Translations under genes and position numbers: made by a program
Source of the DNA: Bdellovibrio sp. KM01
Lineage (GTDB): Bacteria; Bdellovibrionota; Bdellovibrionia; Bdellovibrionales; Bdellovibrionaceae
NCBI RefSeq assembly: GCF_013752535.1
Contig: NZ_CP058348.1
Location: forward strand, 1,550,001 to 1,614,000
Direction of reading: 5' to 3'
DNA length: 64,000 bases
The notes under the pieces: generated by a model
What the model was told of the DNA's origin: nothing
Database searches by the model: none
Seen by the model: the letters and a program-made list of their open reading frames with translations, nothing else
In this document: in pieces, positions 10,163 through 35,248 of the stretch
Position numbering within the stretch: the first letter of the stretch is position 1
Layout: every line of letters begins with the position of its first letter

Positions 10163-10332
10163 AATGCCTAGAGGCCCTCGCTAGGGCTTTGGCCACTGCT
10201 TACCCCAAACTCCGCGACACGCCATCCGTGGCTCACCGTCGCCGGCTTCGCCGGTTCGCGCATCGTGCGCCGACGGAGGTCGCTGCGTGTAGGGTAAGCA
10301 GTGGCCAAAGCCCTAGCGAGGGCCTCGGCATT
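10163..10332. repeat. Long palindromic element 1
   Basis: A 35 bp perfect inverted repeat (10171-10205 with 10292-10326) is extended outward by AATGCC (10163-10168) and GGCATT (10327-10332), the left side having two extra bases. The ~86-base core is GC-rich and itself foldable (GCCGGCTTCGCCGG). The core segment 10215-10289 is shared with palindromic element 2 near 26600, including CGACACGCCATCC and ACGGAGGTCGCTGC. The arms are not shared. It fills the gap between two minus-strand genes. No coding capacity is evident. Confidence 0.9.
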
Positions 10333-26511: not shown

Positions 26512-26756
26512 CAAAAAGGGCTTCGACAATCTAGGCCTTCGCCCAACCGGCGGGAGCGAGCCTGCCTTGGTCACCGTGTCCTGCCTCCTGCGCATTCCTC
26601 GACACGCCATCCGGGCTCAACCGTGGCTCGCCTTCGGCGAGTGCGCGCCATCGTGGCGCCCACGGAGGTCGCTGCATGCGCGGGAGGCAGGCCCCAGCGC
26701 CCAAGTCAGTCTCACTCCCGCCGGTTGAACAAGTTCAACCTCGCGAACCCTTTTTG
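26512..26756. repeat. Long palindromic element 2
   Basis: An imperfect palindrome of about 245 bases with nested pairings: CAAAAAGGG (26512-26520) with CCCTTTTTG (26748-26756), CAACCGGCGGGAG (26544-26556) with CTCCCGCCGGTTG (26715-26727), and 26581-26595 with 26676-26690 (14 of 15). The core 26600-26678 matches the core of element 1 (CGACACGCCATCC and ACGGAGGTCGCTGC shared exactly), while the arms are unrelated to those of element 1. Together with 26757-27118 it fills the 640-base gap between ssb and the lipoprotein gene. Confidence 0.9.
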
Positions 26757-26782: not shown

Positions 26783-26812
26783 GAAATTGAATCGCAGTAG
26801 CGATTCAATTTC
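26783..26812. repeat. Perfect 13 bp hairpin
   Basis: GAAATTGAATCGC (26783-26795) pairs exactly with GCGATTCAATTTC (26800-26812) around an AGTA loop, in the ssb-lipoprotein gap between palindromic elements 2 and 3. It has no T-run on either strand, so it is not an obvious terminator. Confidence 0.75.
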
Positions 26813-26962
26813 TCATTGCTCCTCGCGCGGTCAGAGAAGGGGAGGAACCACGATTTTAAAGGGGAAAAAGTAAGAATTTTTACTTTGAAGTAGCGAAAGC
26901 CATCTCCCAAGGGAGGCTTAATGACGAAATTCATTTCTAGGATTTTGTGTGAATGATTACTT

Positions 26963-27092
26963 CGGGATTTTCCCTGTGTGGGAGAGCCCTGTGGAGCGAA
27001 CCTCCGGGCCCGCAGGATGCGGTACCCAAGCCCGGCAAGGCCAGGAAGGCCGGGTGAGTGGAAAAGGGCTCTCCCAAACAGGGAAAAGCCCG
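26963..27092. repeat. Long palindromic element 3
   Basis: A 27 bp inverted repeat with two mismatches: 26963-26989 with 27066-27092 (GGGAGAGCCC paired with GGGCTCTCCC). The ~76-base GC-rich core, read on the minus strand, contains CCCGGAGGTTCGCTCC, resembling the ACGGAGGTCGCTGC block of elements 1 and 2. That suggests a diverged, oppositely oriented member of the same family. It lies 26 bases beyond the ssb stop, so it could form the 3' end of the ssb transcript. Confidence 0.75.
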
Positions 27093-27118
27093 TACCGTAA
27101 ACAAAGAACGAAGAAATC

Positions 27119-27559
27119 CTAGAAAGGAATTTCGTCGTTTGAGTTGAAGCTTGGTTCTGGGCCGAAGTCGTTGAAATTGAAATCGTCACCGCCACCCGAG
27201 TTGTTGTTAGAGCGAGAACCAGCCTCGGCACCAGCAGCACCCAAGAATTGAACAGTGTTAGCCACGATTTCAGTCGCGTAGCGTTTTTGTCCTTGTTGGT
27301 CTTCCCATGAGCGAGTTTGAAGTTTACCTTCAACGTAAACTTGGCGACCTTTAGAAAGGTGTTTGCCGCAGATTTCTGCCAATTTGCCCCATACAGTTAC
27401 ACGGTGCCATTCAGTTTTTTCCTGACGTTGACCGTCTTTAACCCATGATTCGCTTGTTGCGATGTTAAGGCGAGCTACAGTGCTCCCACTTCCGATTGCT
27501 TTCACTTCTGGATCAGCACCAAGACGACCTACGATAATAACTTTATTTACTCCAGACAT
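27119..27559 (-). CDS. ssb: Single-stranded DNA-binding protein
   Basis: Binds single-stranded DNA during replication, recombination and repair and recruits partners through its tail. The OB fold covers residues 1-105: [46 protein letters not shown] and [15 protein letters not shown] Gly/Asn/Asp-rich linker leads to the C-terminal tip NSNDEIPF, the acidic partner-binding peptide. Length 146 is standard. GGAGGG precedes the ATG. It is monocistronic on the minus strand, downstream of the gspN end. Confidence 0.97.
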
Positions 27560-34852: not shown

Positions 34853-34867
34853 AGCTTCGGTTCTGAC

Positions 34868-35119
34868 TTGGCACATTCTTTTGTCTTGTTGTCTTACAGG
34901 GGTTCGGTCCTCCGTTTGGTGTTGGGGAGGAAGGCTCGCTTACCTCGGACACATCCTCGCTCGTTTTTTCTTTTTGGTTATTTGGATTTGGTGTGGCTCG
35001 ATTTTTGTTTGGTGGCTTCGTGTGTTTCAGAATGGCCTGCGGAACTCGGACGCGAGCCTTCCTCCCCAACACCAAACGGAGAAGAAGTGCTGAGGCAACA
35101 AGACAAAAGAATGTGCCAA
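34868..35119. repeat. Long palindromic element 4 between gspF and gspG
   Basis: Two perfect nested inverted repeats: an outer 22 bp pair (34870-34891 with 35096-35117) and an inner 30 bp pair (34910-34939 with 35052-35081), separated by unpaired segments of 18 and 14 bases. The 112-base centre is T-rich on the plus strand. CTCGGACACATCCTCGCTC just inside the left arm resembles the core start of elements 1 and 2, so it may be a diverged relative. This element occupies most of the 542-base gspF-gspG gap. Confidence 0.9.
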
Positions 35120-35248
35120 TTCGGAATCGAAACAACAAGATACGACTTTTTGTTAAATTCCACTTTAACTCGTGTTCGAAGTCCGATGAGCTGAAGAAGG
35201 CAGGAGCTTGAAGTTTCTCTTTAACTTTTGTGATCAGCCCTGCGAACG

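Follow-up and report, generated by a model that had tools for sequence, protein, structure and literature searches.

A Bdellovibrio-specific family of palindromic repeats with a conserved folded tip and complementary arms that differ from site to site

Palindromic repeats in bacterial genomes are usually recognised by their stems. MITE-like elements, ERIC sequences and Correia elements are each identified as families by their arms or termini, and in integron attC sites, which stand in cassette arrays accompanied by an integrase, short boxes in the stem are kept while the tip varies. Quasipalindromes can be corrected by template switching, a source of sporadic mutation at single sites. REP sequences have a conserved stem of 5-13 bp and a tetranucleotide tag, either GTAG or CGTC (PMC3733652), and those of the CGTC class have no dedicated transposase (PMC3733652, PMC3116915).

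Here we describe a repeat of Bdellovibrio in which the tip is conserved and the sequence of the stem is free. The window, a stretch of 64,000 nucleotides from Bdellovibrio sp. KM01 (contig NZ_CP058348.1, positions 1,550,001 to 1,614,000), contains three copies (Table 1). The original prediction described a perfect 35-bp inverted repeat flanking a core that is found again at a second place with unrelated long arms, and we find all three to be correct. The arms of copy 1 together with the inner stem span 48 nt with 92% complementarity. The core of copy 2 belongs to tip subtype B, with the helix CCGTGG/CCACGG, and copies 2 and 3 are convergent. Copy 3 retains hairpins A and D, has a shortened hairpin C, and carries the helix CCGGGC/GCCCGG in place of CCGTCG/CGACGG.

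Table 1. Positions of the element's parts in the window
Feature	Position	Strand	Remarks
Copy 1, 5' arm	10171-10205	+	35-bp perfect inverted repeat
Copy 1, conserved core (tip)	10210-10290	+	covariance model, 89.4 bits, E=1.7e-20
Copy 1, closing stem of tip	10215-10218/10279-10282	+	structure prediction
Copy 1, hairpin A	10221-10232	+	
Copy 1, helix B	10236-10241/10271-10276	+	
Copy 1, hairpin C	10242-10254	+	
Copy 1, hairpin D	10258-10270	+	
Copy 1, 3' arm	10292-10326	+	perfect complement of 10171-10205
Copy 2, 5' arm	26544-26603	+	60 nt, 80% complementary to 3' arm, mismatches spaced
Copy 2, conserved core	26595-26679	+	covariance model, 96.6 bits
Copy 2, 3' arm	26668-26727	+	
Copy 3, outer arm	26920-26945		pairs with 27114-27139, 26 nt, 92%
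Copy 3, inner arm	26963-26990	-	pairs with 27065-27092, 28 nt, 93%
Copy 3, divergent core	26989-27061	-	covariance model, 17 bits, E=0.034
Copy 3, other inner arm	27065-27092	-	partner of 26963-26990
Copy 3, other outer arm	27114-27139		partner of 26920-26945

Two further palindromes lie in the window. A 13-bp perfect hairpin (GAAATTGAATCGC/GCGATTCAATTTC, with a 4-nt loop) is found at 26783-26812, between the convergent copies 2 and 3. A second long palindrome, at 34856-35131, has 39-nt arms (90%) outside 30-nt perfect arms (34910-34939/35052-35081); its centre is pyrimidine-rich, unrelated and without a match to the conserved core, and it may be an element of the same style with another tip.

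A covariance model built from 22 copies finds 32 copies in the 3.96-Mb KM01 genome, 30 of them with E < 1e-11, so that the outcome which would have counted against the original prediction, a lack of further copies, did not occur. The same search finds the element in 22 of the 24 genomes of the genus, with 2-32 copies in each, while a search with stricter filters than those used within the genus finds copies in 2 of 42 genomes from the rest of the family. The element is specific to Bdellovibrio, with almost none outside the genus. Copies are intergenic and divergent spacers are poor in them (3 of 32, p 0.025), both based on a simple ORF-based gene call, and copies stand in either orientation relative to genes. 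We took one genome (G001) to be that of B. bacteriovorus HD100, and its c-di-GMP-I riboswitch falls inside the published position of merRNA; the ten HD100 copies share the same general fold. No Rfam family matches the element at the gathering score, and a relaxed search gave only chance-level matches. Similarly, we found no description of it in the literature on Bdellovibrio repeats, palindromes and structured RNA motifs. An exact 18-mer of the core gave only scattered single matches in unrelated taxa among GTDB genomes, a set from which the records of KM01 or of near genomes may be absent; we rejected these matches as true copies, since they look like chance. This is apparently an unusual, undescribed kind of repeat.

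The conserved tip, of about 72 nt, is made up of a closing stem, the small hairpin A, and a helix B that carries hairpins C and D. Among 104 copies, 98.7% of tip cells pair and double changes occur at 14 of the 17 tip pairs (216 cells doubly changed), and no control, whether shuffled or slid, approaches this level of covariation; the structure under test had been used to fit the alignment, which favours that structure, and a separate structure prediction on the same alignment yields nearly the same pairs. RNA stems tolerate G.U far more than A.C. In some 1756 core cells, we find about 6 G.T and about 8 A.C. Because the core holds G.T no more often than A.C, pairing seems to be kept in DNA, either as a hairpin or by arm-to-arm copying, and not in RNA. 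One-sided changes from Watson-Crick pairs in the arms number 14 to G.T and 18 to A.C, and arm positions overall hold 148 G.T and 114 A.C, with a p of 0.04 in favour of G.T. Pairing thus seems to be maintained where wobble gives little advantage, as it would be in a DNA hairpin or if one arm were copied from the other.

The original prediction had also allowed for a structured RNA. In such a family the copies would be transcribed, the tip would bind a protein or ligand, and the stem would be kept by selection for RNA pairing. Strong covariation in the tip and the strand asymmetry of arm mismatches (see below) are consistent with this idea, and one of the ten HD100 copies lies in sense orientation within a published attack-phase transcript, APsRNA6. 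However, the near absence of wobble in the core, the one-sided changes in the arms, the mixed orientation of copies to neighbouring genes and the lack of an Rfam family all argue against it. The remaining nine listed HD100 copies correspond to no reported attack-phase sRNA, none of the seven further sRNAs reported for HD100 contains a match, and the copy in APsRNA6 follows an 89-codon ORF and may belong to its 3' UTR. We therefore consider a structured RNA family distinctly unlikely and do not favour that part of the prediction, though the copy in APsRNA6 leaves it some probability. APsRNA6 itself (L115:823-1092) was reported as a small non-coding RNA; we read the 89-codon ORF in it by eye, and it may be a small mRNA with the element in its 3' UTR.

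The arms are 30-60 bp and often longer, and nearly every copy forms a long hairpin. The arms of a copy are complementary to each other with a score of 20-48 in 73 of 80 copies, while arms of different copies paired with one another score 1.3 on average and 7 at most. Thus the arms are self-complementary and different between copies, and this self-complementarity is far above chance, which disposes of the concern that they might be chance low-complexity sequence. A central 23-mer of the copy 1 arm has no second occurrence in the genome at ≤3 mismatches. Arms match mainly orthologous arms; elsewhere, stretches of 13-28 nt are common to a few non-orthologous copies, so that the predicted locus specificity holds for most copies and is incomplete in these few. 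We found no terminal inverted repeats common to the copies beyond these stretches. The idea that arms are taken whole from other copies is unsupported.

Orthologous copies show how the arms change. The genome of one relative (G014) is ∼91% identical to that of KM01, most sites are common to both, and several KM01 copies are also present in the more distant G011. Copy 1 in G014 differs at three of 23 arm positions, and each change is mirrored identically in both arms. If the two sides drifted freely, we would expect 22 of 1005 Watson-Crick pairs in 21 orthologous copies to have changed on both sides and still be Watson-Crick, and 384 to have changed on one side; we find 77 and 84, respectively, with the expected values assuming that the rate at 4-fold sites holds for intergenic DNA, and with the comparisons coming mainly from one species pair (KM01 and G014). 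Transversions account for 33 of the 77 double changes, and a count over 25 copies, including four with inserts or odd tips, yields 90. The suggestion that the arms are rewritten locally is therefore supported insofar as the two arms of orthologous copies change in concert; as to the cause, much of what templated copying predicts would also follow from selection on DNA structure.

The rate of change differs greatly between sites. The inner arms of KM01 and G014 are nearly identical at some sites but differ by 30-50% elsewhere, such that the spread of arm divergence is 10 times binomial. We rejected a general hypermutation of the arms, since mean arm divergence (∼0.2) is near the divergence at 4-fold sites (0.26) in spite of this spread. 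In some orthologous copies, the arms have diverged far less than 4-fold sites, which hints at selection at these arms. Mismatches between the arms are mostly of one kind, with 536 pyrimidine.pyrimidine and 61 purine.purine, counts that pool orthologues and related copies and so represent fewer independent events, and they are commonest close to the tip and ∼16-35 bp from it. The excess of pyrimidine.pyrimidine mismatches points to one strand being special. Templated copying alone does not explain it, and a strand-specific step would be needed.

Several of these observations would also be expected of a stationary DNA structure, that is, a protein-binding or chromosome-organising hairpin or cruciform that is under selection at each locus for paired arms and a conserved tip, and that only rarely gives rise to new copies, through local inverted duplication for example. 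Most copies are common to KM01 and G014 and several to G011, some arms are highly conserved, there is no preference for wobble, and the mismatches, which are of one kind, are concentrated at 16-35 bp from the tip, as would be required of a binding site. On the other hand, the sequence of the arms is free, congeners carry anywhere between 0 and 32 copies, individual sites gain or lose the element, and an informal look revealed neither a conserved neighbour gene nor a fixed chromosomal spacing. We regard a stationary structure as unlikely.

The gain or loss of copies is seen at the window site itself. Copy 1 is present in KM01 and G014 and absent from G011, G016 and G020, which have short, different DNA in its place. 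By parsimony, copy 1 was probably gained at this site, but the pattern could reflect several losses instead. This probable gain, with the dispersed intergenic copies, makes a non-autonomous mobile hairpin the best supported of the three options in the original prediction. A G014 copy (L083) corresponds to a clean empty site in KM01. Among the sites compared, no insertion has both an undisputed empty target and a target duplication; at the empty or element-lacking sites the flanks are too diverged for a target-site duplication to be read. Copies are also lost. Two candidate empty sites, L090 and 2637755, were rejected because they fit microhomology deletions. At site 2257438, the core is missing from both G014 and G011 but with different breakpoints, which makes the site ambiguous as proof that an arm was copied from the target.

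Tips differ between orthologous sites as well. Of the 17 orthologous sites that could be typed, 6 have a tip of subtype A in one species and of subtype B in the other, and the exchanged tips have their best core matches at other loci. Judged from these sequences, tips are evidently replaced between sites. Arms are rewritten more where the tip has been replaced (0.55-0.84) than at the other sites, whose range is wide (0.64-0.97; Mann-Whitney p 0.003, in a post hoc grouping), and core identity correlates with arm identity (rho 0.65, p 0.001). Three G014 copies (L103, L104 and L110) and one G011 copy (L183) carry a second, small hairpin unit, ending in CAAAAATAGCATCCTGCTATTTTTG, within an ATCC loop of their tip. 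This unit also stands at the tips of other palindromes, in KM01 (L181), HD100 (L182) and G013 (L184), a pattern that would result if hairpins inserted into the loops of other hairpins.

If the element is mobile, the abundant Y1 transposases of the genus (RAYT/IS200-type) might move it as a REP-like element. KM01 has 12 Y1_Tnp (PF01797) genes (L169-L180) and G014 has 10, and these two genomes are the richest in copies. We noted by eye at least 14 close pairs of copies among the matches listed, and all 14 are convergent, like the head-to-head dimers of REP sequences (PMC3733652); most copies are single, and the arms of one close pair share 28 nt, which a local inverted duplication could produce. 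However, the element stands beside none of the 12 KM01 Y1 genes in the flanks compared, and some Y1 genes have inverted repeats of their own. Moreover, G002, G012 and G015 have 17, 6 and 7 copies and no Y1_Tnp match above threshold, copy number correlates only weakly with Y1 genes (rho 0.35, p 0.10, falling to 0.15 when the two richest genomes are left out), and the orientation of copies is unbiased with respect to the replication halves (19 of 32, with the position of the origin assumed). Movement by these transposases is thus improbable. Three of the KM01 genes (L169, L173 and L179) are RAYT-like and flanked by inverted repeats of 24-29 nt, and a larger group of similar KM01 Y1 proteins has the motifs GGxLRKSSKGRGARPLS and YSKTRLRGLS in common.

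We favour, at a probability of about 0.5, the explanation that the element is a mobile DNA hairpin, non-autonomous and specific to the genus, that its tip is recognised, and that its arms are kept complementary by templated correction. The folded tip would probably be recognised as single-stranded or cruciform DNA by a putative enzyme, and the stem of 30-60 bp or more would be free in sequence as long as its two arms stay complementary at the DNA level. The arms would fold on each other, as a cruciform or as a hairpin at the replication fork, and one arm would be copied or repaired from the other, such that a change in one is soon mirrored. Through such arm-to-arm templating, each locus would drift to its own palindrome. 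The templated route is the simplest mechanism for mirrored arms; both mobility by tip recognition and templated correction in place of selection are inferred. Against a mobile hairpin, our comparisons point to no mobiliser gene, and absences at sites other than that of copy 1 are deletion-like or ambiguous. A stronger version, with a mobile element defined only by its folded DNA tip, arms re-created or re-copied at each site, tips exchanged, hairpins nesting in tip loops and a dedicated putative enzyme, is tentative and on balance doubtful.

With a stem that is free and a tip that is fixed, such elements would be largely missed by sequence-based repeat finding. The mirrored changes, with no preference for wobble, provide a natural record of how arm complementarity is kept up in DNA. 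The record spans dozens of loci in two dozen species; what is otherwise known of this process comes mostly from mutation reporters. Should an enzyme recognise the tip, Bdellovibrio would possess an undescribed system that acts on folded DNA.

The element resembles each of the known systems in part. Like REP sequences and REPINs, it is dispersed, intergenic and hairpin-forming and occurs in inverted pairs, but its stem is 30-60 bp or more and free in sequence, its 72-nt branched tip is conserved, and, unlike GTAG-class REPs, it does not flank a RAYT/Y1 gene in KM01. MITE-like elements, ERIC sequences and Correia elements are likewise non-autonomous, imperfect intergenic palindromes of ∼100-250 bp, but copies of the Bdellovibrio element have the tip alone in common and arms that vary from site to site. 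As with attC sites, which are recognised as a folded strand, keep their structure while their sequence varies and have one active strand, structure outlasts sequence here; however, the element keeps its tip and varies its stem, which is the reverse pattern, and the free stem sequence speaks against membership among attC sites. Finally, as in quasipalindrome correction, one arm appears to be rewritten from the other, with mirrored changes made in one step, but here this would be the regular way in which a whole repeat family evolves.
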